Assembly (NCBI GenBank): GCA_002305045.1
Contig: DBPX01000022.1
Span: 145,864-209,863, forward strand
Length of the DNA stretch: 64,000 nucleotides
Origin: Ruminococcus sp. UBA1409
GTDB lineage: Bacteria; Bacillota; Clostridia; Oscillospirales; Ruminococcaceae
Direction of reading: 5' to 3'
The position numbers were made by a program, and so were the translations under genes. Under the pieces are notes generated by a model. It did not search any database and was not told the DNA's origin. It worked only from the letters and a program-made list of their open reading frames with translations. Shown one piece after another: positions 5,273 through 55,253 of the stretch (position 1 is the stretch's first letter; the number at the start of each line of letters is the position of its first letter).

Positions 5273-5770
5273 GGCAAATCGCCTGCCTCCGGCAGGCGCC
5301 CTCGGTCGGCTCCGTGCCCCGGGCGGGTTTATTTCTAAGCGGGCGTGCGACCGGGGATGAAGGCTTCGCCCCGGAAGCCATAAATTACGCCTAGCTAGCC
5401 CCGGCGGGAGAAGCTCGCCGGCCCCGGCCCCTAAGATGAGCCGAGGCGGGGCGAAGCCTTCAGGGGAGGGGCCTGCGCCCCTCCTGCTTCCCGCAGGAAG
5501 CCCCCGGTCCCGACTCGCCCTTTCCCGGTCCCGACTCGCCTGTCCCGACCCTCCTCCGGCCTCAAGACCCGCCCGGGGCACGCTAAAAGGCTCAGCCCGC
5601 CTGCTAGGAGCCCTCCCTATCCCGGCCTCGTTAAGGTCAGCCAGGCATAGGTATATAAAATCTCAAGCCTTTTGGGCGGGCTGAGCCTTGCGGCCCGTTT
5701 GCCCCTGCGGGGGCGAACGGGCTTCCGACCGAGGGCGCCGCATCGCTTTTAAGCGATGCGGCGATTTGCC
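5273..5770. other. Structured non-coding element 1 (double four-way junction)
   Basis: This GC-rich block in the 650-bp gap between polA and the HAD gene has nested complementary arms. Outer stem: 5273-5280 with 5763-5770. Left hairpin: 5281-5297 (GCCTGCC tcc GGCAGGC). Inner stem: 5298-5309 with 5725-5736. Right hairpin: 5737-5762. These four meet with no unpaired base. Inside are three arms: 5314-5330 with 5565-5581, 5587-5601 with 5675-5689, and 5693-5705 with 5710-5722. Further inside the first arm, 5358-5372 pairs perfectly with 5448-5462. Both non-Watson-Crick pairs I found (5329/5566 and one in the third arm) are T opposite G on plus, so they are tolerated in a plus-strand RNA. A 17-bp direct repeat lies at 5503-5519 and 5524-5540. 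No convincing ORF is present. Function unknown. Confidence 0.72.
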
Positions 5771-5837
5771 GTTACCGCGCTTTTCTCCCCTGAGCCTATG
5801 CAGGGTCACGGGGAGCTTTATCCCCCCTCTTTATCCC

Positions 5838-8390
5838 TTACTCCTTTGCCTCGAGCCAGCTCTTGCCCCGCCCCAGCTCGACAAGAAGCGGGACCCTTAG
5901 GCTCGCCGCAGACTCCATCTCACGCTTTAAAAGCTCCTGAGCCTTGTCTGCCGACTCGGCTGACGCCTCTACTATCAGCTCATCATGCACCTGGAGAATC
6001 AGCCTGGCGTCAAGACCCTCCTCCTTTAGGCTCCTGTAGACCTTCACCATGGCGAGCTTTATAATGTCCGCCGCAGCCCCCTGTATCGGAGCGTTCATCG
6101 CCGCTCTTTTCCCGAAGGCCTGGAGGTTTCTGTTCGAGCTTTTAAGCTCCGGGATGTATCGCCTCCTGCCGAATACCGTCTTGACATAGCCGTTTTCCTC
6201 TGCAAACTGTACGGTGCTTTTCATGAACGAGTCCACCGCAGGATAGGTTTCGAGGTAGGATTTTATATACCTGTCAGCCTCCGCCACAGAGACTCCGATG
6301 TTCATCGCCCTTAGGTCCTTTGCAAGGGAGTACGCTCCTATACCGTATATTATCCCAAAGTTGACAGCCTTTGCCGCCCTTCTCATGTCGTGGTCGACAA
6401 ATTCCTCCGGCACTCCAAAGACCTCGGCGGCGGTTTTGGTGTGGATGTCCTTGCCGGAGTGGAAGGTGCTTATCATCCTCTCGTCGCCGCAGACGCTGGC
6501 TAATACCCTGAGCTCTATCTGGGAGTAGTCGGCGTCTATGAGGAGCTTCCCGGGAGCCGCTGTGAAGAACCGTCTCAGCTGGCTTCCAAGCTCCTTTCTC
6601 ACCGGGATGTTTTGCATATTGGGATTCGCCGAGGATATCCTGCCCGTCCTTGTCTCGGTCTGCTTGAACTCGCTCCTGACCCTGCCGTCTGGGTCTATCA
6701 GCGGCAAAAGCCCCTCGACATAGGTGGATTTCAGCTTTGTTAAGGTCCTGTACTCCAGCACCAGTCCTATTACCGGGTGGACATCTGTTAGAGCCTCTAA
6801 AACCTCTGCACTGGTGGAGTAGCCGCTCTTTGTCTTTTTCCCGGACGGCAGCCCCAGCTCCCCGAAAAGCACCTCGCCGAGCTGCTTGGGAGAGGAGATG
6901 TTAAACTCATGCCCGCAGACGCCGTATATCTCCTGCCTGAGCCTGTCTATCTCGCCGTCAAGACCCTCGCCGAAGCTTTTTATACCCTCGCTGTCAGCCC
7001 TCACGCCGACGACCTCCATAGACGCAAGCACCTCGCAAAGTGGAAGCTCGATGTCGTAGTAAAGCTTATCAAGGCAGGCCTCGTCAAGGTTTATTCTAAG
7101 GATACGGCACAGCTCGGGAAGCGCCGCAGCCGCTCCGAAGCGGCTTTTTAGGTCCGGGAATACTCCGAAGCTCGCCATCAGGCTCTCAAGGGTATAGTCC
7201 CCCGCCTGAGAATTTAAAAGATACCCCGCAATATCGCAGGCAAACTCGAGCCCTGTGAGCGAGGCTCCGTTTTTCATCGCCAGCTTGTGGGCGGACTTTG
7301 CCTCGTATGCAGACTTTTTGCAGTCCTTTTTAAAATAGGCAAGAATCAGACCCTCTTCCTCGGTGTAATAGACCCTGCCGTTGTAAAAAATCTGAAGCTG
7401 TGCGCCGTCCAGGATAAAATAGCTCTCGCCGTCAATTATATCAAGCTGTGATTTATCAAGGTCTAGGGCGCATACAGGCTCTAACGCCTTATTTTCCCCG
7501 TGGGACTCCTTGGCGGCCTGAGGCTTAGACGACGCCTCCAGCCCGAGCCTTTCAAGGAGCTTAAACATCTCAAGCTCGGTCAAAAGCCCGGAAAGGAGCC
7601 TTTGATCTGCTTCGGTGCAGGAATAGCCGGCCATATCCTGAGGGACGGGCGCATCTCTTACTATTGTTGCAAGCCACCTGCTCTCATAGGCTGACGCCCT
7701 GCCGTTAATAAGCTTTGCTCTCACCGAGGGAGTAAGCTTTGCCTCCCCGAGCGAGTCATACAGCCTGTCAATGCTGCCGTACTCCCTTATGAGCGACAGG
7801 GCTGTTTTCTCCCCGATTCCGGGTACTCCCGGGATATTGTCTGAGCTGTCCCCCATGAGAGCCTTTATGTCTATCAGAGCCTGAGGCCTTGTGCCGTACT
7901 CCGAATAAAATCTCGCCTCGTCAAAGGGTATCGTCTCCTTATTTGTCACCAGCCTGACGCTGACGCCCTCCCCGATAAGCTGCAGGCTGTCACGGTCGCC
8001 GGTCAGAAGGACGCATTCGCCGCCGTTTTTAGCCACAAGAGCCGACACGGAGCCTAAAATATCGTCCGCCTCGTAGCCCTTTAGCTCCAAGACCGGGATT
8101 CCCATCGCCGAAAGTATCTCCCTAAGCTTTGGAAGCTGCATGGCAAGCTCCTCGGGCATCGGCTTTCTTTTAGCCTTGTAGTAGGCGCATTTCTCATGCC
8201 TGAAGGTAGGTCCCTTTAGGTCAAAGGCGCAGGCTACCGAGTCCGGCTTTACTATCTCCCTCTCCTTTAGAAAAATATTCATAAAGCCCGTTATGGCGTT
8301 GGTGTAAAAGCCCCTTGAGGTGGAAAGAAGCTTTATCCCGTAGAACGCCCGGTTTAAAATCGAGTTGCCGTCAATTAAAAGCAGCCTCAT
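5838..8390 (-). CDS. polA: DNA polymerase I
   Basis: The 850-residue enzyme fills gaps and removes RNA primers during replication and repair. Residues 1-290 form the 5'-3' exonuclease (LLIDGNSILNRAFYG, then LTGDRDSLQL and the helix-hairpin-helix GVPGIGEKTA). The middle proofreading domain lacks the DEDD catalytic acids, as in Bacillus-type Pol I, so it is probably inactive. The polymerase domain shows motif A (DYSQIELRVLA), motif B (RRAAKAVNFGIIYG, with Phe at the nucleotide-discrimination position) and motif C (QVHDELIVEA). The ATG at 8390 follows AAAAAGGAG at 7 nt. Length is normal for Firmicutes. Confidence 0.97.
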   Translation of the reverse strand: MRLLLIDGNSILNRAFYGIKLLSTSRGFYTNAITGFMNIFLKEREIVKPDSVACAFDLKGPTFRHEKCAYYKAKRKPMPEELAMQLPKLREILSAMGIPVLELKGYEADDILGSVSALVAKNGGECVLLTGDRDSLQLIGEGVSVRLVTNKETIPFDEARFYSEYGTRPQALIDIKALMGDSSDNIPGVPGIGEKTALSLIREYGSIDRLYDSLGEAKLTPSVRAKLINGRASAYESRWLATIVRDAPVPQDMAGYSCTEADQRLLSGLLTELEMFKLLERLGLEASSKPQAAKESHGENKALEPVCALDLDKSQLDIIDGESYFILDGAQLQIFYNGRVYYTEEEGLILAYFKKDCKKSAYEAKSAHKLAMKNGASLTGLEFACDIAGYLLNSQAGDYTLESLMASFGVFPDLKSRFGAAAALPELCRILRINLDEACLDKLYYDIELPLCEVLASMEVVGVRADSEGIKSFGEGLDGEIDRLRQEIYGVCGHEFNISSPKQLGEVLFGELGLPSGKKTKSGYSTSAEVLEALTDVHPVIGLVLEYRTLTKLKSTYVEGLLPLIDPDGRVRSEFKQTETRTGRISSANPNMQNIPVRKELGSQLRRFFTAAPGKLLIDADYSQIELRVLASVCGDERMISTFHSGKDIHTKTAAEVFGVPEEFVDHDMRRAAKAVNFGIIYGIGAYSLAKDLRAMNIGVSVAEADRYIKSYLETYPAVDSFMKSTVQFAEENGYVKTVFGRRRYIPELKSSNRNLQAFGKRAAMNAPIQGAAADIIKLAMVKVYRSLKEEGLDARLILQVHDELIVEASAESADKAQELLKREMESAASLRVPLLVELGRGKSWLEAKE

Positions 8391-18371: not shown

Positions 18372-18439
18372 GACCTAAAGAGTCCCACGAATTAGAGAGT
18401 CCCAGGACCTAAAGAGTCCCAAGAGCTAGAGAATCTCAA
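18372..18439. repeat. Two-copy 34-bp direct repeat
   Basis: GACCTAAAGAGTCCCA begins a unit at 18372 and again at 18406. The units continue with a variable hexamer and an AGAGAGTCCC or AGAGAATCTC half that is a decayed copy of the first half. It lies between two small ORFs. Confidence 0.6.
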
Positions 18440-18805: not shown

Positions 18806-20266
18806 TTACTCGGTGACCTGACCTGTTGCCTCGTACTCATCAATCATAGCGTTAAGCTCGTCGATGTAGTAGTCGAACGCCTCCCTGTGCTGCTCCTTGA
18901 GCTGCGCCCAGGTGCTGGAGGCTCCGCTTCTGCGGATGTTCCAGTCGAAGGTGTTGTAGATGTCCTGAATACCTGTCGGAAGGTCGCCGGTGTAGAACAT
19001 TCTGGGATTCTCGGCTACGATGCGGTTGCAGGTGTCGTGCATCTCGAGCATCTCATCTGTCCACTTGTATATCTCCTTGAGCTGCTTGCGGTCTATGCTT
19101 ACAACCGTGGGGTCAAGAATCTTGAAGCGGTCGCAGGCGGAAAGAAGCGCAACTCCCTCGGGATTGGTGGCTCCCGAGCAAATCATATAGCCGGTGGGGG
19201 AGGCGTTGAGGTAGTAGATACCGTCGCCGTCCTGATATCTGGGAAGGGGTGCGAACATAAGCTCGCCAGCCTCGATGTCGCCCCAGACATTGTTGATTTC
19301 CTCAACGGGATGGGTGAAGCCGGAGCGGTCGCAGGGCCAGAACAGGCAAAGGCCGTCCTTGATGCCGGCGCCGTACTCGGCGTTGTTTCTGTTAGCCCAG
19401 TAGTTGGTGCCCTCGTAGTAGCAGCAGTCGTTTCTTACGAGGTCGTAGATAAGGTTCTCGGCAACCTCGATGGTGGGGTCGTCAAGATTCGAGAAGAACT
19501 TGCCGTTCTCGTCCTTATCGATAAGGTAGATGCCGGTCGACTCCTCGACAAGGCTGTTTACGACATACCAGCCGTCAAGAGCGAAGCGGTCCTCATCGGG
19601 GTCGGAGAACTCCATGCACATCTCGACGTATACATCCCAGGTCCACTCGTCGTTAGCGTAAAGCTCGGCGGGGTCGTCAAAGCCCCACTCGTCGATGACT
19701 CTGCGGTTGTAGGGGATGACATCCTTGTAGGTGAGGTCGGTGACTATTGCAAAGTGCTTGTCGCCAAGGGCAAAATACTCGGCAGCCTCAGCCATGTCAG
19801 CCCAGAGGGGGTCGGTGTAGTCTATCCACTGGTCGATAGGCTGATACATTCCCTTTATGCAGCTCATCGGGAAGGTGGCGCCGTTGGAGGTTCCTGCGGG
19901 TGCGAAGTCGGGAGAGCTGGAGGAAAGAACAAGGTTTGCAAGGTCGTTGTTTCTTTCGGAATAGGTGGTCTCGATGAACTCCATCTCGCCGCCGTACTTC
20001 TCCTGGAAGGTGAAGTAGCCGGTGTTGATGATTTCATCCTCGGAGTAGTTCTGGAATGGGTCGTACCATGCGAAGAACTTTACCGTCGTGTTTGCTCCGG
20101 GTGCGGTCTCAGCGTCAGGCAGCATGATTCCCGCAGCGGCAAGGATAGCCTCGGCGTCCTCGGTGGAAAGAGTGAGCTTGATTGGCTGTCTCTTTTCCTT
20201 TCCGCAGCCGACAAGGGCTATGACCATCACGGCACAAAGGAGCATTGCAATTACTTTTTTAAGCAT
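18806..20266 (-). CDS. Solute-binding-like lipoprotein, paralogue 1
   Basis: The 486-residue product is a type II lipoprotein: MLKKVIAMLLCAVMVIALVG then the lipobox Cys. The mature part resembles family 1 extracellular solute-binding proteins of ABC importers (FQEKYGG, then a DLANLVL block and SSPDF, and EWTWDVYVEMCMEF). It is the most downstream of five tandem paralogues that share LTLSTEDAEAILAAAG and DDPAELYANDEWTWD. An upstream in-frame ATG at 20311 exists, but AGAAAGGAAACC precedes the ATG at 20266 and the signal peptide starts there. No permease or ATPase gene is near, so the ligand is unknown. Confidence 0.88.
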   Translation of the reverse strand: MLKKVIAMLLCAVMVIALVGCGKEKRQPIKLTLSTEDAEAILAAAGIMLPDAETAPGANTTVKFFAWYDPFQNYSEDEIINTGYFTFQEKYGGEMEFIETTYSERNNDLANLVLSSSSPDFAPAGTSNGATFPMSCIKGMYQPIDQWIDYTDPLWADMAEAAEYFALGDKHFAIVTDLTYKDVIPYNRRVIDEWGFDDPAELYANDEWTWDVYVEMCMEFSDPDEDRFALDGWYVVNSLVEESTGIYLIDKDENGKFFSNLDDPTIEVAENLIYDLVRNDCCYYEGTNYWANRNNAEYGAGIKDGLCLFWPCDRSGFTHPVEEINNVWGDIEAGELMFAPLPRYQDGDGIYYLNASPTGYMICSGATNPEGVALLSACDRFKILDPTVVSIDRKQLKEIYKWTDEMLEMHDTCNRIVAENPRMFYTGDLPTGIQDIYNTFDWNIRRSGASSTWAQLKEQHREAFDYYIDELNAMIDEYEATGQVTE

Positions 20267-20480
20267 TTCAGGTTTCCTTTCTTGTGATTGATTTAGACGC
20301 TTCAAAAGCAAAGCCTGCTCCTTTATGGGAGCATTGCAGTTACTTTTAAGCGTCTCGGGTTTTCTTCCTTTGACTAGCTTAATTCTTAAATTTATGGTAA
20401 CGGCTTCGGCTCGTTAGGATCGTCCGCCATTACTTTTTAAATTCCGGGGTCCCTTTTTTAGCTGGCTTAATGTTAATCTC
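20238..20480. repeat. Degenerate repeats of a lipoprotein gene start
   Basis: The start-proximal segment of paralogue 1 (20238-20300) recurs in decayed form at about 20325-20382 (GGGAGCATTGCAGTTACTTT and onward through TAAGCGTCTCGGG and CTTCCTTTGACTAG) and again, weaker, at about 20430-20480. The matched part covers signal-peptide codons, start and ribosome site. These look like remnants of duplication events upstream of the gene. Confidence 0.6.
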
Positions 20481-20536
20481 CCTGACACGGGAGCGCCCCG
20501 CCGTGGGAGGATATCTTAGCGCAAGACTTGGCTTTA

Positions 20537-20577
20537 GCTCCCCGGGAGAGTCCTATGCTCAGCGTCTCCCGGGGAGC
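20537..20577. terminator. Strong hairpin downstream of paralogue 2
   Basis: GCTCCCCGGGAGA (20537-20549) pairs perfectly over 13 bp with 20565-20577. It follows the paralogue 2 stop on minus. No T-run follows on minus, so it may be a processing or mRNA-stabilising hairpin instead of a classical terminator. Confidence 0.55.
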
Positions 20578-20625
20578 GTTTAGTTTATTACGGCAAAGCG
20601 CCGTCTCCCCTGAGTATTTTCAGGC

Positions 20626-22083
20626 CTATACCGTTCCGCCTGCGTTATACTCCTCAATCATGGCGTTAAGCTCATCGATGTAGTAGTCAAATCTCTCCTG
20701 ATTCGACTCCTTGAGCTGTGCCCAGGTGCTGGTGGCTCCGCTTCTGCGGATGTTCCAGTCGAAGGTGTTGTATACATCCTGAAGTCCCTGAGGCAGGTTT
20801 CCGGTGTAGAACATCTTTGGATTGTCTGCAACTATCTGGTTGCAGGTGTCGTGCATCTCGAGCATCTCATCGCTCCACTTGTAGACCTCACGGAGCTGCT
20901 TCTTGTCGATGTCGACAACGGTGGGGTCTAAAATCTTGAAGCGCTCGCAGGAGGCAAGAAGAGCAACTCCCTCGGGGTTGGTAGCGCCCTTGCATATCAT
21001 GTAGCCCTTGGGCATGGCGTTGAGGTAGTAGATACCGTCGCCGTCCTGATATCTGGGAAGAGGTGCGAACATGAACTCGCCCGCCTCGATGTCGCCCCAG
21101 ATGTTGTTCATCTCCTCGACGGGGAGCCTGAAGCCGTCGTCCCTGTCGCATATCCAGAACAGGCAAAGACCGTCCTTGACGCCTGCGCCGTACTGAGCCT
21201 GATTTCTGTTAGCCCAGTAGTTGGTGCCCTCGTGGTAGCAGCACTCGTTCTTTACGAGGTCGTAAATCATGTTCTGAGCGAACTCGATTATGGTGCTGTC
21301 AAGATTTGAGAAGAACTTTCCGTTCTCGTCCTTGTCAAGAAGGTATACTCCGCTCGACTCCTCGACTATCGAGTTTACGACATACCAGCCGTCAAGAGCG
21401 TAGCGGTCCTCGTCGGGGTCGGAGAACTCCATGCACATCTCGTAGAATACATCCCAGGTCCACTCATCGTTTGCATAAAGCTCGGCGGGATCGTCGAAGC
21501 CCCACTCCTCAATGACTCTGCGGTTGTAGGGAACGACATCCTTATATGTAAGGTCGGTGACTATCGAGAAGTGACCTCCGCCAAGAGTGAAATACTCTGC
21601 GGCGTCTGCCATGTCAGCCCAGAGAGGGTCGGTATAGTCTATCCACTGGTCTACCGGCTGGTACTGACCCTTGATGCAGTCCATCGGGAAAACAGCGAAG
21701 TTAGATGTACCTGTCAGAGTGCAGTCCGGCGGAGTTCCGGCAAGGAGAAGGTTTGCAAGGTCGTTTGACTTATCCTCGTAGGTGGTCTCAATCCATTCGA
21801 TGCTTCCGCCGTACTTTTCCTGGAAGGTAAAGTAGCCGGTGTTTACAATTTCATCCTCTGAGTAGTTTTGCAGATAATCTACCCAGCTGAAATATTTGAC
21901 CACGGTGTTTGCGCCCGGAGCCGACTCGGCGTCAGGCAGCATGATTCCCGCCGCCCTCAGAATAGCCTCGGAGTCCTCTGTCGAAAGGGTGAGCTTAATC
22001 GGCTGTCTCTTTTCCTTGCCGCATCCGACGACCGCAAGGACCATCATAGCGGCTAGCGCCATGGAAAGTATCCTCTTCAACAT
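20626..22083 (-). CDS. Solute-binding-like lipoprotein, paralogue 2
   Basis: The 485-residue lipoprotein (MLKRILSMALAAMMVLAVVG then Cys) is the closest relative of paralogue 1: both have the GKEKRQPIKL post-lipobox sequence, WIDYTDPLWADMA and NIRRSGA near the C-terminus. The mature protein has the family 1 solute-binding pattern (FQEKYGG, DLANLLLAGTPPD). The ATG at 22083 follows GAAGGTG at 8 nt and is preferred over an upstream in-frame start at 22122. A promoter lies at 22182-22210. Four Trp/Asp-rich blocks are nearly invariant across the five copies, suggesting a shared fold with different ligands. Confidence 0.88.
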   Translation of the reverse strand: MLKRILSMALAAMMVLAVVGCGKEKRQPIKLTLSTEDSEAILRAAGIMLPDAESAPGANTVVKYFSWVDYLQNYSEDEIVNTGYFTFQEKYGGSIEWIETTYEDKSNDLANLLLAGTPPDCTLTGTSNFAVFPMDCIKGQYQPVDQWIDYTDPLWADMADAAEYFTLGGGHFSIVTDLTYKDVVPYNRRVIEEWGFDDPAELYANDEWTWDVFYEMCMEFSDPDEDRYALDGWYVVNSIVEESSGVYLLDKDENGKFFSNLDSTIIEFAQNMIYDLVKNECCYHEGTNYWANRNQAQYGAGVKDGLCLFWICDRDDGFRLPVEEMNNIWGDIEAGEFMFAPLPRYQDGDGIYYLNAMPKGYMICKGATNPEGVALLASCERFKILDPTVVDIDKKQLREVYKWSDEMLEMHDTCNQIVADNPKMFYTGNLPQGLQDVYNTFDWNIRRSGATSTWAQLKESNQERFDYYIDELNAMIEEYNAGGTV

Positions 22084-22181
22084 AAATTTCACCTTCAAAA
22101 TCAGTTTTATAGACTTTTGCACCAGTTTTTAGGAGGCTTGGGCAGGCCCTTTAAGACTCCCGGCGGTACATCATATATATA

Positions 22182-22210
22182 CTTATAACATATTTTTCGC
22201 ACAAATGCAA
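22182..22210 (-). promoter_or_regulatory. Promoter of paralogue 2
   Basis: On minus, TTGCAT (22210-22205) and TATAAG (22187-22182) are spaced by 17 nt, upstream of the lipoprotein start at 22083. The rest of the 594-bp gap 22084-22677 is comparatively AT-rich and holds no gene I can support. Confidence 0.55.
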
Positions 22211-22677
22211 GTGCTTTTTTACTAGGCGCTGTCAATCACACAGTATTTTGTTTAAAATCGCAACATTCCGCCCTGATACTGTTTATTATAGTAATACGCC
22301 GCCCGATTCCCTCTGTGTCGGCTGCATAAATCAATATATGCCTCCGGCTCGCCCGATTTACCCTGCTAAAGGTATAAATCTCTCCCGGGAGGGATTCATA
22401 GCGGGCAATGTAAGAATCTGTAATCGACTCCCGGCTTGCGTTACTCTGCACAATTTCCAAAGCGAAATCTTGTTGGATATTTTTAATTTCCAGGCGATAA
22501 AATTCTCTTGAACAAGCTAATATTTTAATAATCCCAAGTAAGGCAGGGGCAGCGGTCCGCACACAAAAGATGCGGTCAGGACTGCCTCCCGGACGGTCTG
22601 TCCTTAAATTTCGGTGCGGCGAGATTTCCCCCTAGCTCCCTGACATATGGTCTGCCGGGACGGTATGCTCGCAGACG

Positions 22678-24135
22678 TTACTCATCTCCGCTGCCGTAGG
22701 CTGCTACCTCCTCGTTGAGCTCGTTTACATAGTATTCAAGCCTTTCGGCGTAGCCCTCTCTTATAGATGCCCAGGTCTGAGCCTCCTGAAGCCTTCCCAG
22801 CTCCTTACAGCTGTTTACCGTGCTGTCAAGCTGCGTACCGAGACCGGCGTCGTAAACCAGGACGCTGTACTCGCCGTTTGCAAGATCGTGGGTGTGGTCG
22901 TACATGTCGAGCATCTCCTCGCTCCACTTGTAGACCTCGATAAGCTGCTTTTTGTCTACCGAGACGACAGTCGGGTCGAGAATCTTGAAGCGGTCGCAGG
23001 AGGCAAGAAGAGCAACTCCCTCGGGGTTGGGACCGTCTTTAACCATGCAGTAGCCGTTTGACTTCGTTGTGCAGTAGTAGTTGCCGTCTCCCTCGGAGTC
23101 TCTGGGGATGGGCACGAACATAAGCTCACCAGCCTCGATATCGCCCCAGACCTGATTAATCTCCGCAACGGGAGCGGTGAACGCCCATGTTCCCCTCAGC
23201 CAGAAGAGGGTAAGACCGTCCTTGATTCCGACTCCCTCTATCTCCTCGCCGCCACGGAGCGCCCAGCCGTTGTTCCAAAGAGGATAGATGCAGTCGTTTC
23301 TTTTCAGCTCGTAGATGAGGTTTGCGGCTCTTTCAAGCCTCGGGTCGTCAAGATTGGAGACAAACCTTTGCTCCTCGGTGTCGTAGGTGACGATGTCCGT
23401 GCCGCTCGACTCCATGAGAGCGTTGTCATATCCCCAGCCGTCGAGAGCGTAGCGGTCCTCGTCAGGGTCGGAGAAGTCTATGCACATCTCAAGGAAGGCT
23501 TCCCAGGTCCACTCGTCGTTGGCGTAAAGCTCGGCGGGGTCGTCAAAGCCCCACTCGTCGATGACTCTGCGGTTGTAGGCGCAGACATGCTCGATGGAGA
23601 TATCCGTAACTATCATATAGACTCTGCCGTTGAGCGTAAAATGGTCTCTTGCGAAGCCGGCTGTGCCCGACCATAGGGGGTCGTCATAGTCTATGTAATC
23701 GTCGACCGGCTGGAAAACACCCTTTATTGCGTAGTTGGGGAAGGTCTCGACATCGCCGGGGTAGCAGTCGGGAGGGGTTCCGCCCAGGGTAAGGGTGGCA
23801 AGGTCGTCAAATCTCCTGTCCCAAGTGCATTCCACCCACTCGATGGTGCAGCCGTATTTTTCGTTGAAGGTGAAGTAGCCGGTGTTGACGATTTCATCAT
23901 CGGAGTAGTTTTGCAGAGCGTCATACCAGGCGTACCACTTCACAACACTGTTGGCGCAGGGGACCTCGGCGGCGTCCGGCAGGCTGATTCCCGCAGCGGC
24001 AAGAATCGCCTCGGCGTCCTCGGTGGAAAGGGTGAGCTTGATGACCTCACGGCTGCTCTTTCCGCATCCGACGACCGCCGTCAACATAAGCAGCGCAAGA
24101 AGCAGGATTGCTATTCTTTTTGTAGCCCGTCTCAT
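22678..24135 (-). CDS. Solute-binding-like lipoprotein, paralogue 3
   Basis: The 485-residue lipoprotein (signal LLLALLMLTAVVG then Cys) is the most divergent of the five: it lacks the EKRQ stretch after the lipobox (GKSSREVIKL instead) and has an altered C-terminal third (DHTHDLANGEY, ending in AAYGSGDE). The shared blocks LTLSTEDAEAILAAAG and DDPAELYANDEWTWEAF remain. The ATG at 24135 follows GAAAGGAAAC. It has its own gap on both sides, so each paralogue may be a separate transcription unit. Confidence 0.87.
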   Translation of the reverse strand: MRRATKRIAILLLALLMLTAVVGCGKSSREVIKLTLSTEDAEAILAAAGISLPDAAEVPCANSVVKWYAWYDALQNYSDDEIVNTGYFTFNEKYGCTIEWVECTWDRRFDDLATLTLGGTPPDCYPGDVETFPNYAIKGVFQPVDDYIDYDDPLWSGTAGFARDHFTLNGRVYMIVTDISIEHVCAYNRRVIDEWGFDDPAELYANDEWTWEAFLEMCIDFSDPDEDRYALDGWGYDNALMESSGTDIVTYDTEEQRFVSNLDDPRLERAANLIYELKRNDCIYPLWNNGWALRGGEEIEGVGIKDGLTLFWLRGTWAFTAPVAEINQVWGDIEAGELMFVPIPRDSEGDGNYYCTTKSNGYCMVKDGPNPEGVALLASCDRFKILDPTVVSVDKKQLIEVYKWSEEMLDMYDHTHDLANGEYSVLVYDAGLGTQLDSTVNSCKELGRLQEAQTWASIREGYAERLEYYVNELNEEVAAYGSGDE

Positions 24136-24293
24136 AGATAGTTTCCTTTCGCATTGGGATTTAGGGGAAGAATTAAGGAAAAATCACACCTATACTATTA
24201 TTTTATACTAAATCTGATAATAAATCAATATGCAAATCAACCAATTTGTAAAAGGAATTTTCTACATCTGCCACAAATGTCCTTAAAAGCAAA

Positions 24294-24320
24294 CAGGAGC
24301 TGGCAGTCTGCCAACCCCTG
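24294..24320 (-). terminator. Terminator of paralogue 4
   Basis: CAGGAGCTGGCAG (24294-24306) pairs over 13 positions (two G-T) with 24308-24320. On minus it is followed by TTTGCTTTT. It lies just after the stop of paralogue 4. Confidence 0.75.
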
Positions 24321-24374
24321 TCGGTTCGGAAAAATATGTTATCTGTTGAAGCAATCGGTTGTCATGCTGGGATT

Positions 24375-25808
24375 TTATACCCCTTCGCTGATTAGACTGT
24401 TCAGCTCGTCGATGTAGTAATCAAAGGACTCCTGATTCTGCTCCTTGAGCTGTGCCCAGGTGGAGGGAGTGGTGTTCCTTATGATGCCGTTGCCCAGGTT
24501 GTTAATGGTGTTCTGGAGACCGTCGGGGAGGTTTCCTGTGAGGTCGATTCTCTGGTTTGCAAGAGCAATCTCACGGCAGGTATCCCACATCTCGAGCATC
24601 TCCTGATTCCACTTGTAGACCTCCTCGAGCTGCTTGCGGTCGATTCTGACTACGGTGGGGTCGACTATCTTGAAGCGGTTGCAGGCTGCCAGAAGTGCAA
24701 CGCCGTCGGGGTTCTTGCAGTCCTTGACCATGCCGTAGGCGCTTATAGTCGAGCACTCGTAGTAGATGCCGTCGCCCTGCGGGTCTCTGGGAAGGGGAGC
24801 GAACATCAGCTCGCCGGCCTCAATATCGCCCCAGAGTGCGCTTACCTCCTCAACGGTATCGGTGAAGAAGCTTATGCCTATTACATAGAAGAGGCAAAGA
24901 CCATCCTTAACGCCTGCGCCAAAGGTTGCATTGTTTCTGAGCGCCCACATCGAGGTGCCCTCATGGTACTTGCAGTCGTTCTTGGCGAGGTCGTAGATGA
25001 GGTTCTGCGCTCTTTCAATCTCGGGAGAGTCGAGGTTTGAGTAGAATACTCCGTTCTCGTCGACCTGGAGCATCTGCTGACCGGTGGACTCTACCAAGGC
25101 TCCGGCATAGGCGTAGCCGTCAAGAGCGTAGCGGTTCTCGTCTCCGTCGGAGAACTCCATGCACATCTCGTAGAATACATCCCAGGTCCACTCGTCGTTG
25201 GCGTAAAGCTCGGCGGGATCGTCGAAGCCCCACTCCTCGATGACTCTGCGGTTGTAGGGAACGACATTGGCGACTCCGAGGTCGAATATAATGCCGTAGT
25301 GCTGACCTTTGAGAACAAAGTAGTCAGCGGTCTCCTTCATGCCGGCCCAGAGCGGGTCGTCATAGTCGATGTAGTCGTCTACAGGCTGGTACTGACCCTT
25401 TATGCACGCCATGGGATAAACGGCGGTGGAGTTAGTGCCGAAGGGTGTGAAGTCCGGGGGATTTCCGGCAAGGACAAGGTTTGCGAGGTCGTTCATTCTC
25501 TCGAAGTAGTCGCACTCGATCCACTCGACCTCTCCTCCGTACTTCTCGGTGAAGGTGTAAAAGCCGGTGTTGATTATCTCGTCCTCTGAGTAGTTGTGGA
25601 ACTCGTCATACCAAGCGAGCCAGGTCACGGTGCTGTTAGCTCCCTTGGCCTCCTCGGCGTCGGGAAGGACGATTCCGGCGGCGGCAAGTATAGCCTCGGA
25701 ATCCTCGGTGGAAAGGGTCAGCTTGATTATCTGCCTTTTTTCCTTTCCGCAGCCTACAAGCACGAATATCATAATAAGCGCCAGGCTGAGGGTAAGTATT
25801 CTTTTCAT
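24375..25808 (-). CDS. Solute-binding-like lipoprotein, paralogue 4
   Basis: The 477-residue lipoprotein (MKRILTLSLALIMIFVLVG then Cys) is closest to paralogue 5: both share GKEKRQIIKL, EWIECDYFERMNDLANL, GYAYAGA.VESTGQQML and an insertion-free C-terminus with GIIRN. Clear ribosome site AAGGAG 9 nt before the ATG at 25808. The mature part has the family 1 solute-binding layout with two lobes joined near the DDPAELYANDEWTWD block. Ligand unknown. Confidence 0.88.
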   Translation of the reverse strand: MKRILTLSLALIMIFVLVGCGKEKRQIIKLTLSTEDSEAILAAAGIVLPDAEEAKGANSTVTWLAWYDEFHNYSEDEIINTGFYTFTEKYGGEVEWIECDYFERMNDLANLVLAGNPPDFTPFGTNSTAVYPMACIKGQYQPVDDYIDYDDPLWAGMKETADYFVLKGQHYGIIFDLGVANVVPYNRRVIEEWGFDDPAELYANDEWTWDVFYEMCMEFSDGDENRYALDGYAYAGALVESTGQQMLQVDENGVFYSNLDSPEIERAQNLIYDLAKNDCKYHEGTSMWALRNNATFGAGVKDGLCLFYVIGISFFTDTVEEVSALWGDIEAGELMFAPLPRDPQGDGIYYECSTISAYGMVKDCKNPDGVALLAACNRFKIVDPTVVRIDRKQLEEVYKWNQEMLEMWDTCREIALANQRIDLTGNLPDGLQNTINNLGNGIIRNTTPSTWAQLKEQNQESFDYYIDELNSLISEGV

Positions 25809-25920
25809 CTTGTTAATCTCCTTCTTTTCGGGAGTAGACAGCCGCCCTTGACGGGCGGCGTCGGCTTTTGCTTAGAGCCGGCTAAGGCCTTAAGGGCTTA
25901 AAGCCTTGAAGCCTTAAGGC

Positions 25921-27369
25921 TTATGACCTCTTGGCGTTCTCGTCGGCTATGAGAGCGTTAAGCTCCTCGATGTAATACTCGACCGACTCACGGTTCTCCT
26001 CCTTGAGCTGCGCCCAGGACGAGGGGTTGGAGTTCCTTATGATACCGTCGCTCAGTCTGCCGAGGGCGGTGGCAAGGTTGCTGGGAAGGTCGCCGGTGAG
26101 GTCCATGCGCTGGTTTGCAAGGGCTATCTCACGGCAGGTGTCCCACATCTCGAGCATCTCGTCGTTCCACTTGTAGACCTCACGGAGCTGCTTGCGGTCG
26201 ATATTCTCGACGGTGGGGTCGATTCTCTTGAATCTCTCGCAGGCTGCGAAGAGCGCAACGCCCTCAGGGTTAGCGCAGTCCTTGACTATGCCGTAGCTCT
26301 TCATGTAGGGAGAGGCGCCCATGTAGTATACGCCGTCGCCCTGCGGGTCCCTGGGAAGGGGAGCGAACATAAGCTCGCCGGCCTCGATGTCGCCCCAGAG
26401 TGCGCTTACCTCCTCAACGGTGCCACGGAAGAACTCTACGCCTATTGTGTAGAACAGGCAAAGTCCGTCCTTAACGCCGGAGCCGAAGATTGCGTTGTTT
26501 CTCGGCCACATATTTGTGCCGTTGTGGTAGCAGCAGTCGTTCTTGGCAAGGTCGTAGATGAGGTTCTCCGCTCTTTCAATCTCGGGAGAGTCGATATTGG
26601 AGTAGAATACGCCGTTCTCGTCTATCTGGAGCATCTGCTGGCCGGTAGACTCAACCATAGCTCCTGCGTAGGCGTAGCCGTCGAGGGCGAAGCGGTCCTC
26701 GTCAGGGTCGGAGAACTCTACGCACATCTCGTAGAATACATCCCAGGTCCACTCGTCGTTGGCGTAAAGCTCGGCGGGGTCGTCAAAGCCCCACTCCTCG
26801 AGGACTCTGCGGTTGTAGGGGATGACATTGGAGGAATCAAGGTCAAATACTATTACATAGTGCTCGCCGCCTAGAGTGAAGTAATCTGCGGTCTCCTTGA
26901 GTCCGTTCCAAAGCGGGTCGTCATAGTCTATCCACTGGTCGATAGCCTGATACTGACCCTTGATGCAGCTCATCGGGTAGGTGGCTGTGGAGTTGGTGCC
27001 GGAGGGTGTGAAGTCCGGGGGATTTCCGGCGAGGATAAGATTTGCGAGGTCGTTCATTCTCTCGAAGTAGTCGCACTCGATCCACTCAATCTCTCCGCCG
27101 TACTTCTCGGTGAAGGTGAAGTATCCGGTATTGACGACTTCATCCTCGGAGTAGTTGTGGAACTGGTCGAACCAAGAGAGCCACTTGATGGTGGAATTTG
27201 CACCGGCGGCAGTCTCAGCGTCGGGGAGCATGATTCCCGCAGCGGCGAGAATAGCCTCCGAATCCTCGGTGGAAAGGGTCAGCTTGATTATCTGCCTTTT
27301 TTCCTTTCCGCAGCCGACCATCACAAAGACGGTCACGAGAATAAGAAGCAGCGCAATAATTCTTCTCAT
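25921..27369 (-). CDS. Solute-binding-like lipoprotein, paralogue 5
   Basis: The 482-residue lipoprotein (MRRIIALLLILVTVFVMVG then Cys) is the first of the tandem array in transcription order. It is the near twin of paralogue 4, including YALDG/FALDGYAYAGAMVEST. GAAAGGAAATG precedes the ATG at 27369 and TATAAT occurs on minus at 27458-27453. The stop codon lies inside a palindrome-rich AAGGCCTTAAGG tract at 25885-25922. As for the others, no ABC transporter genes flank it. Confidence 0.88.
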   Translation of the reverse strand: MRRIIALLLILVTVFVMVGCGKEKRQIIKLTLSTEDSEAILAAAGIMLPDAETAAGANSTIKWLSWFDQFHNYSEDEVVNTGYFTFTEKYGGEIEWIECDYFERMNDLANLILAGNPPDFTPSGTNSTATYPMSCIKGQYQAIDQWIDYDDPLWNGLKETADYFTLGGEHYVIVFDLDSSNVIPYNRRVLEEWGFDDPAELYANDEWTWDVFYEMCVEFSDPDEDRFALDGYAYAGAMVESTGQQMLQIDENGVFYSNIDSPEIERAENLIYDLAKNDCCYHNGTNMWPRNNAIFGSGVKDGLCLFYTIGVEFFRGTVEEVSALWGDIEAGELMFAPLPRDPQGDGVYYMGASPYMKSYGIVKDCANPEGVALFAACERFKRIDPTVENIDRKQLREVYKWNDEMLEMWDTCREIALANQRMDLTGDLPSNLATALGRLSDGIIRNSNPSSWAQLKEENRESVEYYIEELNALIADENAKRS

Positions 27370-40190: not shown

Positions 40191-40787
40191 ATGCTTCTTT
40201 CCAAGGTCAAGACCTTTTTAATTGCCGCAACAATAATCTGTGTTACAATCATGATAATACAGTTTAGCATGATAGCAGAGGCTATTACCACCTCTATAGA
40301 GCTTTCAAATCCCTACGGCATGGCGGCTGTCAACATTATAGAGGGCAGGGATATGGTGGTAGTCAACGCCAAGGGCATTGTCAAGACGATAAGCGACGGC
40401 GTCTATCATGTAAGAATCGAGATATCCGCAAAGGACTATTACAAGGGTGACAGAGACTTTAACGGAAGAAGCATATCGGATATCTACCTTGTCAAGGACC
40501 TGGAGCTTGAATACAATCTTGACGACTCCGAAAGAGTGGTATTTTGCAGTGCGGGGGATGGCACCAAGGTCCTAGGAACAGGCTCCGGGATAATAGCCGT
40601 TGCCGATGAGGATTCCATCGCCGTTGACCTTATCATCACCGGGGAGGCTCCGATTCTGCACGAGCTGAAGCTTCGCTACGACATCTTCGGCATCGGGCTG
40701 TTTTACATGAACCGCTTCGAGGATGTCGAGGTCACTATAGACATCCCGATTGAGCGCTGCCATATCGGTCCGATTGAAAACGCCTAG
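40191..40787 (+). CDS. Exported protein of unknown function
   Basis: The 198-residue protein starts with a hydrophobic signal or anchor (residues 8-31, LIAATIICVTIMIIQF) and continues with an extracellular beta-rich domain: alternating strands such as MVVVNAKGIVKT, YHVRIEISAKDYYKG and AVDLIITGEAP. One Cys occurs near each end of the mature part. AGGTG precedes the ATG. I recognise no family. It is divergent from CotH and upstream of the VTC/DUF4956 operon, so a surface role is plausible. A terminator follows directly. Confidence 0.72.
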   Translation: MLLSKVKTFLIAATIICVTIMIIQFSMIAEAITTSIELSNPYGMAAVNIIEGRDMVVVNAKGIVKTISDGVYHVRIEISAKDYYKGDRDFNGRSISDIYLVKDLELEYNLDDSERVVFCSAGDGTKVLGTGSGIIAVADEDSIAVDLIITGEAPILHELKLRYDIFGIGLFYMNRFEDVEVTIDIPIERCHIGPIENA

Positions 40788-40855: not shown

Positions 40856-41449
40856 GGAGGGAGTCAGGGGGCGCCCGCAGCCTGACGGCTGCTATCCGCC
40901 CAGCTCCCGGCAGGAGGAGTCTAGACTCTGCTGCGGGGAGCCTAAAAATCCTTACAGGCTCCTGCAGGACCCTACAGGACACGCCGCCCGGTAAGGCATC
41001 CGGCAGGCATTTAAGCTGAAAACGGCTTCGCCGCCCTTTTGCCTGCCGGATGCCTCACTCCCCAGCCGCCTCCGGGAGGTTTTGGGGAAATCTCTGCCGC
41101 ACTCCGCCGCCGGGCTGGGCTGGGGCTAGCGGGCTAAAGCTCACCGCACGGAGGCGGCTGGGGAGCAGCGTGGAGCCGCACGCCCTCCCCGGGCATTAAG
41201 CGCCCTTGCTCCTGCCGCCCCGCCCCCCAGGCAGCAATAAGAGGGAAACACCGTGCGGCTCCACGCAGCCGGGCGGCTGTAAGGCTATCCCGAGGCTCAT
41301 AGGACGCCATACCGGCGTGGCTCCCCGCTTATGTGCTGCATGGGAGCAGGCTTATTTTGCGTACCCTGACCGTGACGCACCCCCTCCCCCTGCCGGGCTG
41401 GGCGGACCCCCTGCGAAGCAGGGGAGGGCGCCCCCGGGACAGTCCCTCC
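40856..41449. other. Structured non-coding element 2 (double four-way junction)
   Basis: This is the main content of the 913-bp gap 40788-41700. Outer stem: 40867-40876 with 41426-41435, extended by 40856-40862 with 41443-41449. Left hairpin: 40877-40892 (GCAGCC tgac GGCTGC). Inner stem: 40895-40911 with 41392-41406 (2-nt bulge). Right hairpin: 41408-41424 (CCCCTGC gaa GCAGGGG). Only four bases at this junction are unpaired. A long bulged helix (for example 40933-40940 with 41321-41328, and 40950-40956 with 41278-41284) leads to stem 40983-40991/41269-41277, which closes a second four-way junction. Its arms are 40994-41055, 41058-41165 and 41168-41266, with perfect terminal stems of 16, 16 and 15 bp. 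No convincing ORF. Function unknown. Confidence 0.72.
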
Positions 41450-51772: not shown

Positions 51773-51792
51773 ATAATTGGAGGAAAAGTATT

Positions 51793-52294: not shown

Positions 52295-52318
52295 GAATTG
52301 TTAAAGGAGATATATAAG

Positions 52319-53133: not shown

Positions 53134-53144
53134 TAATATGCTTC

Positions 53145-53290: not shown

Positions 53291-53329
53291 CTTGACTCGA
53301 AGCTACTAAATCGCAAAGAGGTGAATTAA

Positions 53330-53836
53330 ATGCCAAACCAGAATGTTCTCAACCAGAAGATTGCCAAGGTCGCCGAGATAAAGGGGCTTATAAGCTCCTC
53401 AAAGGCAGGCGTTTTGGTAGACTACAGCGGTATCTCCGTGGAGGATGACACCAAGCTCCGCAAGGAGCTGAGAGAGGCTGGAGTCCGTTACTTCGTCGAG
53501 AAGAACACCCTTTTAAGGCGTGCTCTTAACGAGGTCGGAATGGAGTCCCTGACCGAGGTCCTCAGCGGCGCAACCGCCATCGCCGTATCCGATGGGGACG
53601 AGACAGCAGCCGCAAGAATCCTCGGAAGCTACGCCGAGGAGCATGAGAGCTTCAAGCTCAAGGCAGGCTACATCGGCTCCGACATCTATGACGCAGAGGG
53701 CGTCATGGCGATATCCAAAATCCCCTCGAGGGAGACTCTTCTTGCACAGCTCGTCGGCTCCCTGCAGGGTCCGATGCAGAAGCTCGCCGCAACTCTTTCG
53801 GCTCTCGCCGACAAGAAGGAGGAGGAAGCAGCCTAA
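53330..53836 (+). CDS. rplJ: 50S ribosomal protein L10
   Basis: The 168-residue stalk base protein has AGVLVDYSGISVEDDTKLRKELREAG in the N-terminal half (block DYSGISVEDDTKLR) and a C-terminal helix that binds L7/L12 dimers. GCAAAGAGGTG precedes the ATG. Confidence 0.97.
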   Translation: MPNQNVLNQKIAKVAEIKGLISSSKAGVLVDYSGISVEDDTKLRKELREAGVRYFVEKNTLLRRALNEVGMESLTEVLSGATAIAVSDGDETAAARILGSYAEEHESFKLKAGYIGSDIYDAEGVMAISKIPSRETLLAQLVGSLQGPMQKLAATLSALADKKEEEAA

Positions 53837-53966
53837 GCGCTGTAATCTGGCTGCCGCCGGCTGAGTGTCTGGCGCCGCCGGTCTTAAAATCACTGCGTTT
53901 TAAGAAAAACAGCGGCTGATATATGCCGCAAAAAATCAAAATAATACTGAAAAGGAGATTAATAAT

Positions 53967-54335
53967 ATGGCTTCTGAAAAGATTTTAGGCATTGTTGAAG
54001 AGGTTAAGGGCCTCTCTGTTCTCGAGCTCAAGGAGCTTGTTGACGCTATCCAGGAGGAGTTCGGAGTTACCGCCGTTGTAGCTGCCGCTCCCGCCGCCGG
54101 CGCTGCTGCCGCCGCTGCTGAGAAGACCGAGTTTGATGTCGTTCTCGCTTCCTTCGGTGACGCTAAGATGGGCGTTATCAAGGCTGTCAAGGAGCTTCTC
54201 GGTCTCGGACTCAAGGAGGCTAAGGAGTTCGTTGAGGCTGCTCCTAAGACCGTCAAGGAGGGCGTCTCCAAGGCTGAGGCTGACGAAATCAAGGCTAAGC
54301 TCGAGGAGGCTGGAGCTACCGTCGAGGTTAAGTAA
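53967..54335 (+). CDS. rplL: 50S ribosomal protein L7/L12
   Basis: The 122-residue stalk protein has the N-terminal dimerisation helices, an Ala/Pro-rich hinge ([13 protein letters not shown]) and the C-terminal factor-binding domain ([21 protein letters not shown], block GLGLKEAKE). AAAGGAG precedes the ATG. Strong codon bias fits high expression. Confidence 0.98.
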
Positions 54336-54390
54336 TACCTGCGGTATCCTAGTCACGGCTTGAGCGCCGTGGCTTCATAGAAATGACAAA

Positions 54391-54427
54391 AGCCCTGTGT
54401 TTCTTTAAGAAATTCAGGGCTTTTTAT
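54391..54427 (+). terminator. Terminator of rplJ-rplL
   Basis: AGCCCTG (54391-54397) pairs with CAGGGCT (54415-54421) with an inner TTTCTT/AAGAAA stem, followed by TTTTAT. Confidence 0.88.
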
Positions 54428-54455
54428 AGTGATGTTCGCCCTGTGGCAAGTGAAG

Positions 54456-54880
54456 CTGCCTTGCGGCAGTGGTATCTCCACCATAGCTTGATAAGGAGGC
54501 AGCCTTATGCAAAGTGAGCTGTCAGCTTAGCTGACTAATTGCTTGCCGTTTAGGTCTCACATTAGCCTGACATCCATGCGCCCTTCGTGAAGCGGCGGGA
54601 GGCTGTCTTCCCTTGCTAACCGGCAAGCACTCCGCCGCAGCTGACGCTGCGGCGGCTCACTTTGCATATCCGGGGCGTCATAGCTTTGTGGGAGGAGGGG
54701 GCCGCCTGCGGCAGTGGCGTTCGGCTGACGGCGAGTGGTATTGCTTCGCAGCAAGGCTCGCTTTGCAGTGAAATTTGTCTTACGACAAGTGAAATTCGCT
54801 TAACAGCGAGTGAAGCTGCCTTGCGGCAGTAAGGCTACTGCGCAGTGAAGCAGCGTTTCAGTGAGACAGCCTTTCACGGC
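54456..54880. repeat. Array of mini-hairpins separated by GTGAA
   Basis: Short 5-bp hairpins with 4-nt loops recur: 54456-54469, 54741-54754, 54775-54788, 54796-54809, 54816-54829, and a loop-2 version at 54837-54846. Examples are TTGTC-TTAC-GACAA, TCGCT-TAAC-AGCGA and CTGCC-TTGC-GGCAG. In the compact part (54775-54846) they start about every 20-21 nt and are joined by GTGAAAT or GTGAAG. The exact hairpin CTGCC-TTGC-GGCAG occurs twice, within a shared TGAAGCTGCCTTGCGGCAGT. Sequences differ while pairing is kept. Part of a 961-bp region without genes. Confidence 0.68.
54506..54668. other. Structured non-coding element 4 (single four-way junction)
   Basis: A perfect 14-bp stem (54506-54519 with 54655-54668) encloses three arms: hairpin 54521-54535 (GTCAGC tta GCTGAC), stem 54540-54553 with 54616-54629 (13 of 14 pairs), and hairpin 54632-54655 (CCGCCGCAGC tgac GCTGCGGCGG). 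It lies inside the mini-hairpin region, next to element 3. Its TGAC loop is shared with the left hairpin of element 2. No ORF supported. Confidence 0.6.
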
Positions 54881-54910
54881 TTGAGGGGAGCTTGTCCACC
54901 GCTCAGGACC

Positions 54911-55253
54911 GGGAGTTTTGAAGCCGGCAAAGCCAAAGGGCTTTGCCGGCTTCGCCGCCGGTTCTCAAAATCCGCCGGGCGCTAATCCCCCGGGCTTTTA
55001 TATCCCGATATAGCCCTAGCCCGCCACCCTCCCGGAGCATGGGTCCTAGGACGAAAAATCCCGGCGGATTTGACCGTCCTGGCAGGGCGGCCTCCCTCCC
55101 GAAAAAAAGGTGAGGGTGACCTAGGGGGCAGCAGAGCCTTGCCCGGGGCAGCGAGCAAGCTAAAGCCCTGCCGCCCTGCCCGGACGGGGAGGGGACTAAG
55201 TCCCCGGAGAACCGGCGGCGGGGAAAGGCGAAGCCTTTCCCCGCAAAACTCCC
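54911..55253. other. Structured non-coding element 3 (double four-way junction)
   Basis: Outer stem: 54911-54920 with 55244-55253 (10 bp). Left hairpin: 54921-54952 (14 bp, loop AAAG). Inner stem: 54953-54966 with 55207-55220 (14 bp). Right hairpin: 55221-55241 (9 bp, loop GAA). Only two bases are unpaired and the junction can branch-migrate. Distal junction arms: 54968-54979 with 55060-55071, 55074-55090 with 55171-55187 (16 of 17), and 55191-55205. The layout equals that of element 1. It lies between the rplL terminator and the convergent AraC gene. No convincing ORF. Confidence 0.72.

Follow-up and report, generated by a model that had tools for sequence, protein, structure and literature searches.

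Gene-less hairpin-ended elements in a Ruminococcus genome: probable mobile DNA of a class that carries a DUF559 nuclease gene

REPINs are paired inverted hairpin units that lie at gene ends and are found in copies within a genome, and in the REPIN/RAYT system these non-autonomous copies are moved by one small endonuclease gene. IS200/IS605 elements use an HUH transposase, and subterminal secondary structures are recognised at their ends. Among described systems these come close to the sequences reported here; REPINs and RAYTs are the subject of PMC3116915 and PMC3733652, IS200/IS605 and palindrome-associated elements that of PMC6006769. A further point of comparison is VsrA of Caulobacter, presented in passages of PMC12907096 as a DUF559 domain protein of PD-(D/E)XK type with a Vsr-like predicted structure; a role in mismatch repair is proposed, and those passages do not mention a mobile element.

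The window, that is the whole 64-kb stretch of Ruminococcus DNA analysed here, contains three blocks of nested complementary arms, just where the original prediction had placed them:

5273-5770, minus strand: block 1, double four-way-junction element of 498 nt, 3' of polA (5838-8390, minus strand); outer stem 5273-5283/5760-5770, left hairpin 5280-5298, right hairpin 5736-5763, inner stem 5295-5309/5725-5739, three interior arms (5313-5330/5565-5582, 5587-5601/5675-5689, 5693-5722)
40856-41449, no strand assigned: block 2, double four-way-junction element of 594 nt, downstream of the gene at 40191-40787 (plus strand); second junction with closing stem 40983-40991/41269-41277 and arms 40994-41055, 41058-41165 and 41168-41266
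54911-55253, minus strand: block 3, double four-way-junction element of 343 nt, downstream of an AraC-type gene (55297-56187, minus strand); inner stem 54953-54966/55207-55220, enclosing arms 54968-55071, 55074-55187 and 55191-55205

Every fold runs from the outer stem through the left hairpin and the inner stem to a branched interior, then back through the inner stem and the right hairpin to the outer stem, with 0, 4 and 2 unpaired bases at the basal junctions of blocks 1, 2 and 3, as had been claimed. Since the junction of block 1 can slide, neighbouring stems share up to 4 nt at their ends. Minimum-energy RNA folds reach -331.5, -369.1 and -212.6 kcal/mol (z -10.4, -9.8 and -9.7; equally stable shuffles 0/100, 0/20 and 0/100, in block order), both strands being about equally stable, the reverse slightly better. 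The whole layout was put to a strict automatic rule: a four-helix loop that has no more than 10 unpaired bases and a hairpin at its first and last place, and a branched middle arm containing a second four-helix loop. The parameters of the junction finder were tuned on the window, and shuffles therefore serve as the control. All three blocks satisfy the rule on both strands, and none of 60 dinucleotide shuffles per block does (0/180 in total), so that the comparison with shuffled sequences, suggested at the outset as a check, places the structure well above chance. In a sliding 300-nt fold scan (dinucleotide regression), a length too short for the blocks, block 3 alone of the three passed. The expectation that the blocks hold no convincing gene was borne out, four overlapping ORFs having no Pfam match at E 0.01; as to their unlikeness to OLE, GOLLD and ROOL, the window has no match at gathering score to any of 4227 Rfam families. 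A second copy of comparable length exists in the genome for none of them (best match of block 1, beyond itself and its own stems, 17-21 nt; of block 2, at most 45 nt, E 0.08 or worse; of block 3, 39 nt at 83%, E 0.006).

The general layout is shared by further GC-rich structured gaps in this genome, but besides blocks 1-3 only two of the eight further regions examined pass the strict rule. The double-junction layout of the blocks is found again in a family member with family-type arms (locus L140 of genome G046) and in a permuted element at C20:23768. The gap at C19:78883-79504 (z -9.4 and -11.3, 12 shuffles) displays the layout by eye, yet fails the strict rule. A last candidate, C16:7560-8150, was dropped as near chance (z -2.2, 3/100 shuffles as stable, rule satisfied by 1/60 shuffles).

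Block 1 is a lineage-specific insertion. The gap between polA and the HAD gene, filled by block 1, measures 653 nt here, versus 13-78 nt in nine relatives, two of which (L020 and L021) have an identical gap sequence. The comparison covered 24 HAD loci, 17 of them with polA; left out of the nine were seven polA loci arranged otherwise and L013, where a 375-nt gap is found without such an element. Around block 2, none of the 19 VTC loci compared has gene 40191.

A more compact element, overlooked in the original prediction, is the copy that has relatives. It lies 243 nt from block 3:

54506-54668, minus strand: compact element of 163 nt, outer geometry as in the blocks; outer stem 54506-54523/54651-54668, inner stem 54540-54553/54616-54629, hairpins 54521-54535 and 54632-54655
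54485-54494, minus strand: AGCTTGATAA, reading TTATCAAGCT on the opposite strand; the flank motif in its second form (by eye), next to the compact element
54878-54891, minus strand: GGCTTGAGGGGAGC, adjoining block 3 and resembling, by eye, the flank motif of compact copies (CCCTCAAGC on the other strand)

With 168.1 bits, it is one of 24 full copies (94-176 bits) dispersed in the genome. The ends consist, in order, of a terminal arm, a hairpin and an inter-end stem. Both sides have changed in 28 of 57 pairs (shuffles 0/500), and 90.8% of the alignment cells are paired, against 33-41% when the alignment is slid. Having terminal inverted repeats, no gene and dispersed copies, the family answers to the description of a MITE. 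The most conserved letters are those of the stems, and hairpin loops vary. The flank motif (TTATCAARCT or CCCTCAAGC) adjoins the outer stem of many copies, and the central domain is seen in both orientations relative to it (both by eye); no target-site duplication was seen by eye in the flanks, no exact empty site was defined, and the intergenic sequences aligned for comparison are too diverged. All 22 loci with a called left gene, of the 24, place the copy 3' of at least one neighbour (11 convergent, 5 tandem, 6 reverse tandem), counts that are approximate, the home-made gene caller having put rplL on the wrong strand.

The hairpin signature of the compact element extends to 66 of 295 genomes and 50 of 148 genera of the order (reversed-pattern control: 0 in all rows listed); 8 of the 24 compact copies carry it with 2-3 mismatches. 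In gene-bearing relatives, the gene between the ends encodes a DUF559 nuclease (PF04480 in Pfam). This gene was beyond what the window alone could show an earlier reader. The protein matches PDB 3hrl by sequence (E 5e-15), Foldseek retrieves 3hrl and the homing endonuclease 3r3p, and its predicted fold is Vsr-like. Its Pfam entry is still entitled 'protein of unknown function', and a single DUF559 query has at least 8000 homologues.

Paired ends accompany this gene widely. Across the order, the flank-to-flank stem score reaches at least 12 in 18 of 23 testable DUF559 loci (7/30 were left out, with short flanks) versus 0/131 control genes, which were drawn from this genome and the genus and not from the DUF559 genomes. 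Two of the 18 (L214 and L215) have identical end stems and are perhaps one element; several of the five below the threshold (L205, L211, L218, L228, L231) have hairpin ends by eye. The strict junction is present in 9/23, L212 and L216 being weak or odd, versus 0-2 per shuffle round. Within the genus, paired ends are found in 10/10 testable full matches; the five others among the 15 loci, two cut by contig ends (L235, L238) and three partial matches in other proteins (L243, L244, L248), have no stem of 12. Named DUF559 records, mostly from other phyla, have paired ends in 11 of 12 cases versus 4/400 random placements, match ends being used as borders as in the order test; Photobacterium misses the threshold. 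With gene ends as borders, five of the first six pass; the Sphingomonas record L253, having its right end within the gene, passes once match ends are taken. In Deinococcus sp. QL22, paaD-paaZ occurs without the element.

Sequence ties gene-less to gene-bearing ends within the same genome in four cases (G046, G045, G031, G056) out of five (not in G027), G002 and G037, where the members of the same-genome pair overlap in place, being excluded from the count. The compact element itself matches DUF559-bearing ends at 92% over 26 nt (E 7e-5), with 6/45 loci at E<0.01; against the same 45 loci, blocks 1-3 have no match each at E 0.01. The compact element is thus tied to the DUF559 class by sequence, the blocks by architecture only. 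Searches of this genome, a MAG 88.5% complete, found no DUF559 gene; in the genus 11 of 31 genomes have a match, strong in nine of those. The proposal that pairing is conserved where sequence is not holds for the compact family, through covariation, and by eye for nuclease-bearing relatives, which keep the end layout with quite different stems; it does not follow from three non-homologous blocks. Likewise, the search for further copies and covariation succeeded with the compact element, through its 24 copies and its relatives across the order, and gave no further copies of the blocks.

With a probability of about 0.6, we read the compact element, and most probably blocks 1-3, as non-autonomous mobile DNA, MITE- or REPIN-like, of a class whose gene-bearing members carry a single small gene, that of a DUF559 nuclease of Vsr-like fold. 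An end is a half-unit with three parts: a terminal arm complementary to itself, a short hairpin, and a strand pairing with the opposite end. The two ends together can form a four-way DNA junction, either in a cruciform or on the single strands that replication exposes. Gene-bearing copies have the nuclease gene between two half-units, and gene-less copies a small branched interior, of two or three hairpin arms, in its stead. The nuclease may recognise and cut the junction, and cutting may drive excision or copying into new sites: in this sense we infer that the elements move. Blocks 1-3, which lack sequence similarity to the compact family, would have been made by the same process. As this genome yielded no DUF559 gene, its copies would be stranded, or would formerly have moved in trans. 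DUF559 could also travel with the elements as a passenger, without being what moves them.

The original prediction had named RNA, cruciform DNA and mobile hairpin elements as possible identities; the last two fit together, and the RNA is disfavoured by mismatch counts. Large structured RNAs, transcribed as 3' UTR, sRNA or ribozyme-like molecules and keeping their pairing through selection at the RNA level, would suit the strong covariation of the compact family, the place of its copies 3' of one neighbour or more in each of the 22 loci that have a called left gene, and the flank motif adjoining the outer stem (by eye). RNA should, however, keep G-U and reject A-C. When the upstream gene sets the orientation, the core helices have 26 G-U versus 23 A-C mismatches (p 0.78); in the orientation of the alignment they have 29 versus 20 (p 0.25). 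Convergent sites have no single transcribed strand. As the two kinds are about equal, the count favours DNA over RNA. The near-equal stability of blocks 1-3 on either strand, slightly better in reverse, conservation that is highest in stems, with variable hairpin loops, a central domain that by eye faces either way with respect to the flank motif, and a protein gene inside relatives of the element all speak against RNA, as does Rfam, with no family at gathering score for 11 loci and sub-threshold hits only elsewhere. We hold this explanation to be quite unlikely.

That the elements derive from RAYT/REPIN or IS200/IS605, with a Y1 (HUH) transposase as the mover of the hairpin repeats, appears very improbable. 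Paired inverted hairpins, gene-end placement and copies within a genome do recall REPINs, but a Y1 transposase (PF01797) is absent from this genome in a search that was positive in 5 of 14 control genomes, the gene between such ends elsewhere is DUF559, of a different fold, and the element has two unlike hairpins with terminal arms instead of two equal REPs. It is unlikely, too, that the blocks have nothing to do with the DUF559 class, the compact element alone being a member and the blocks palindrome-rich gaps of independent origin, which template switching or some other element has shaped and which are alike only in fold. Consistent with this, no sequence link of blocks 1-3 to the class was found, any nested inverted repeats may yield a four-way layout, and C16:7560-8150 shows that GC-rich gaps may resemble the blocks by chance (z -2.2; 1/60 shuffles). 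Against it stand the double-junction layout common to the blocks, L140 of G046 and the permuted C20:23768, the 0/180 shuffles of the three blocks, the position of block 3, adjoining a family flank motif 243 nt from a compact copy, and the nature of block 1 as a lineage insert.

If DUF559 is the mover of hairpin-ended elements, a very common unexplained domain turns out to act in transposition, and one origin would account for many of the GC-rich palindromic repeats in bacterial genomes. More tentatively, and at somewhat less than even odds, these could be minimal transposable elements of several phyla in which one nuclease of about 115 aa, of Vsr/DUF559 type, reads a DNA shape, the end-hairpin four-way junction, and not a sequence, so that end sequences would be free to drift while pairing is kept. 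This would explain stems that differ from copy to copy, including those of the three blocks, and would be an unusual mode of transposon recognition. Among the matches listed, from open-licence papers only, we found no account of DUF559 mobile elements, and the novelty of DUF559 hairpin-ended elements is not proven.

How, then, do these elements compare with known systems? They share with REPIN/RAYT the short inverted hairpin units, the gene ends, the many copies and, on our reading, non-autonomous copies that one small endonuclease gene would move, but the associated gene encodes the Vsr-like DUF559 in place of a Y1 HUH enzyme, and the units, with a terminal arm and a hairpin, close a four-way junction in elements of about 140-600 nt. 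IS200/IS605 likewise have subterminal structures at their ends, but their HUH transposase was not found in this genome. MITEs (review, PMC10969869) are alike in terminal inverted repeats, dispersed gene-less copies and sequence common to gene-bearing relatives of the same genome (4/5 genomes here); they differ in that here a transposase of a known IS family was not found, hairpins are subterminal and the interior is branched. The fold of the nuclease is related to those of Vsr (1vsr, 1cw0) and of the homing endonuclease I-Bth0305I (3r3p, named a mobile intron protein in PDB), but hairpin ends flank the gene in the present elements, and DUF559 stands closer to 3hrl. Finally, VsrA of Caulobacter, as far as the passages of PMC12907096 describe it, has its DUF559 domain in common with the element nuclease.

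Three blocks of the window fold as double four-way junctions, as the original prediction held, and a smaller element adjoins the last of them:

5273-5770, block 1, double four-way junction
40856-41449, block 2, double four-way junction
54911-55253, block 3, double four-way junction
54506-54668, minus strand, compact element adjoining block 3

Under a strict rule the double junction is found in blocks 1-3 on both strands and in 0/60 shuffles of each. The blocks are also far more stable than shuffled sequence, with z values of -10.4, -9.8 and -9.7, respectively. None of the four open reading frames overlapping them has a Pfam match, and nothing in the whole window reaches the gathering score of any Rfam family. 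The genome is a 1.74-Mb MAG of 22 contigs (completeness 88.5%); the nearest long matches of its PolA in named genomes lie in two Ruminococcus-labelled MAGs, at 59% (L089) and 57% (L090) identity. A search of this genome found no second copy of block 1, 2 or 3.

Elsewhere in the window, a 33-nt intergenic direct repeat (AGAGTCCCA type) occurs three times at 18372-18438 with a spacing of 17 nt, and five tandem paralogues of 477-501 aa occupy 18806-27369, their repeated stretches being 63-87% alike in DNA. Unlike the GC-rich blocks, a gap on contig C12 of this genome (L080:19081-19519) is AT-rich (GC 0.36); its fold is very stable, with z about -11.8 and -11.2 on the two strands (12 shuffles).

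Of the further copies and covariation to which the original prediction looked for support, no copies were found for the blocks, while the compact element has both. Scanning for closely touching helices in the order outer stem, hairpin, inner stem, hairpin yielded five elements, 156-181 nt long and recognisably alike in sequence, one of which is the element in the window. The covariance model built from these five recovers, with 150 of 566 candidates scored, 24 full copies (94-176 bits) on nine contigs of the genome, plus weaker places. Their distribution is uneven: contig C12 (330 kb, about one-fifth of the genome) has none of the 24. Both sides have changed in 28 of 57 pairs, and 90.8% of paired cells are complementary, against 33-41% with the structure slid; 0/500 shuffles reach the observed values, which come from an alignment fitted to the model, hence biased towards structure, with the five seeds among the 24. 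By eye, an array of short-hairpin repeats (GAAGCTGCCTTGCGGCAGT and GAAATTCGC..GCGAG types) surrounds the compact element at 54428-54870, and many copies elsewhere are trailed by similar short hairpins. A stretch adjoining one copy (L100:1378-1450) matches the Rfam Gut-1 RNA below threshold, at 33.3 bits against 50.

The original prediction left the choice between a structured RNA, a DNA cruciform and a mobile hairpin element. A selected RNA should tolerate G-U and reject A-C on its transcribed strand. When the strand was set by the upstream gene, which turned six compact copies, the core helices held 26 G-U against 23 A-C (p 0.78); with every copy left as aligned, the counts were 29 and 20 (p 0.25). 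Copies between convergent genes are without a single transcribed strand, which limits the test, and the fitted alignment favours G-U, so that the test is, if anything, tilted towards RNA. Since the two mismatches are about equally frequent, and blocks 1-3 fold about equally well on either strand, the evidence speaks for a structure acting as DNA. Taken together, the results support the earlier interpretation in part.

The arrangement of the arms varies. By eye, two elements of contig C20 have their arms swapped: the GATTGCC-type arm, inner in the compact family, is outermost, the GCAAAG arm lies inside, and the hairpins are similar. Both arrangements are also seen, again by eye, in other genomes. 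Such variation agrees with half-units, each made of a terminal arm, a hairpin and a pairing strand, being combined head to head or tail to tail. Weak model matches occur in 11 of 60 genomes, own genome counted, and most of those in relatives, judged by eye, share a signature with this layout built around it. This 25-nt signature, with up to two mismatches allowed, is present in 66/295 genomes and 50/148 genera of the order, while the printed table for its reversed pattern holds 0 throughout; eight of the 24 compact copies carry it with two to three mismatches. In a genome of the same genus (G046), the gene-less locus L140 combines family-type arms with exactly the predicted double junction.

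Longer copies across the order hold, by eye, a small gene (L154 and L155, 444 and 470 nt; the compound L166, 659 nt), which a Pfam search at the place of L155 (in G089) identifies as DUF559 (PF04480). DUF559 matches occur in 39/147 genomes of the order, some weak or within larger proteins, and in 11/31 of the genus, nine of them strong; the Pfam search of the window's own genome, an 88.5% complete MAG, found none. Among the 23 of 30 fetched order loci that have full flanks, nine show a strict junction enclosing the gene (shuffled flanks give 0-2 per round over 20 rounds), and 18 have a flank-to-flank stem scoring at least 12, each with 0/50 shuffles as high; the same score is reached by 0/131 small control genes from the window's genome and the genus. 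All ten testable full matches of the genus have a stem of 12.8-53.4 (no shuffle control). The stem is again found, at 15-54 and each time with 0/100 shuffles as high, in 11 of 12 named records, where random placements reach 12 in 4/400 cases. These records, a non-random sample, are one of three phage records and 11 of the 15 plasmid records listed (of 37), the four listed from E. coli and Neisseria being left out; they include four Deinococcus, Azospirillum, two Sphingomonas, Novosphingobium, two cyanobacteria and Photobacterium, the sole miss. In three Deinococcus species (L250, L251, L255) the element lies beside or near the 4-hydroxyphenylacetate genes hpaB or hpaE, perhaps as one old insertion. 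In a plasmid of Azospirillum lipoferum 4B (L252) the DUF559-element stretch matches 23 places within its own record, and is thus abundantly repeated there.

Comparison of neighbourhoods bears on mobility. PolA and a HAD gene are adjacent, in the same order and strand, in ten relatives. Between aligned ends, the gap is 13-78 nt in nine of these, 375 nt without such an element in the tenth, and 653 nt, containing block 1, in the window. The relatives being distant (PolA 63-70% identical over aligned parts), the comparison points to this lineage having gained block 1, and does not amount to an exact empty site. Deinococcus offers a parallel: the paaD-paaZ interval is 83 nt long in Deinococcus sp. 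QL22, and in D. psychrotolerans a DUF559 element lies within it. By eye, no target-site duplication was seen in the flanks.

Gene-less and gene-bearing elements of the same genome have end sequence in common in G046 (83% over 65), G045 (85% over 101), G031 (90% over 49) and G056 (30/30), two more pairs with overlapping positions being uncounted; the two elements tested in G027 have none. The window's compact element matches DUF559 loci at 92% over 26 nt (E 7e-5) and reaches E<0.01 against six of the 45 loci; we place it in the DUF559 class with good confidence. Blocks 1-3 have no sequence match to these 45 loci, so that their tie to the family lies in architecture and placement downstream of genes, with, for block 3, a flank motif (54878-54891, by eye); they are probably members.

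The ends, their pairing, the copies, the gene, its predicted fold and the lineage-specific presence are shown; from these a mechanism may be inferred. The ends would extrude as a four-way junction, DUF559 would cut it, and repair or replication would put the freed element into a new site, survivors remaining mostly at gene ends. An enzyme reading shape, with stem sequence drifting, would leave pairing conserved and sequence not, as originally noted. Among the open-licence papers listed, we saw no description of such a DUF559 mobile-element class. By sequence, the best PDB match of the DUF559 protein given here is the endonuclease-like 3hrl (5e-15); the match to the mobile intron protein 3r3p is weak (0.07). 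The same two are the best folds for its AlphaFold2 model (pLDDT 79, pTM 0.72), at 3.6e-5 and 1.3e-4, ahead of mitoribosomal chains, 5hmC restriction enzymes and, at rank 18, Vsr (0.28). E62, D64, G65 and H68 are invariant in 40 close homologues and fit a nuclease centre, as in the Vsr/EDxHD group. A DUF559 protein of Caulobacter is described as PD-(D/E)XK and Vsr-like (PMC12907096).
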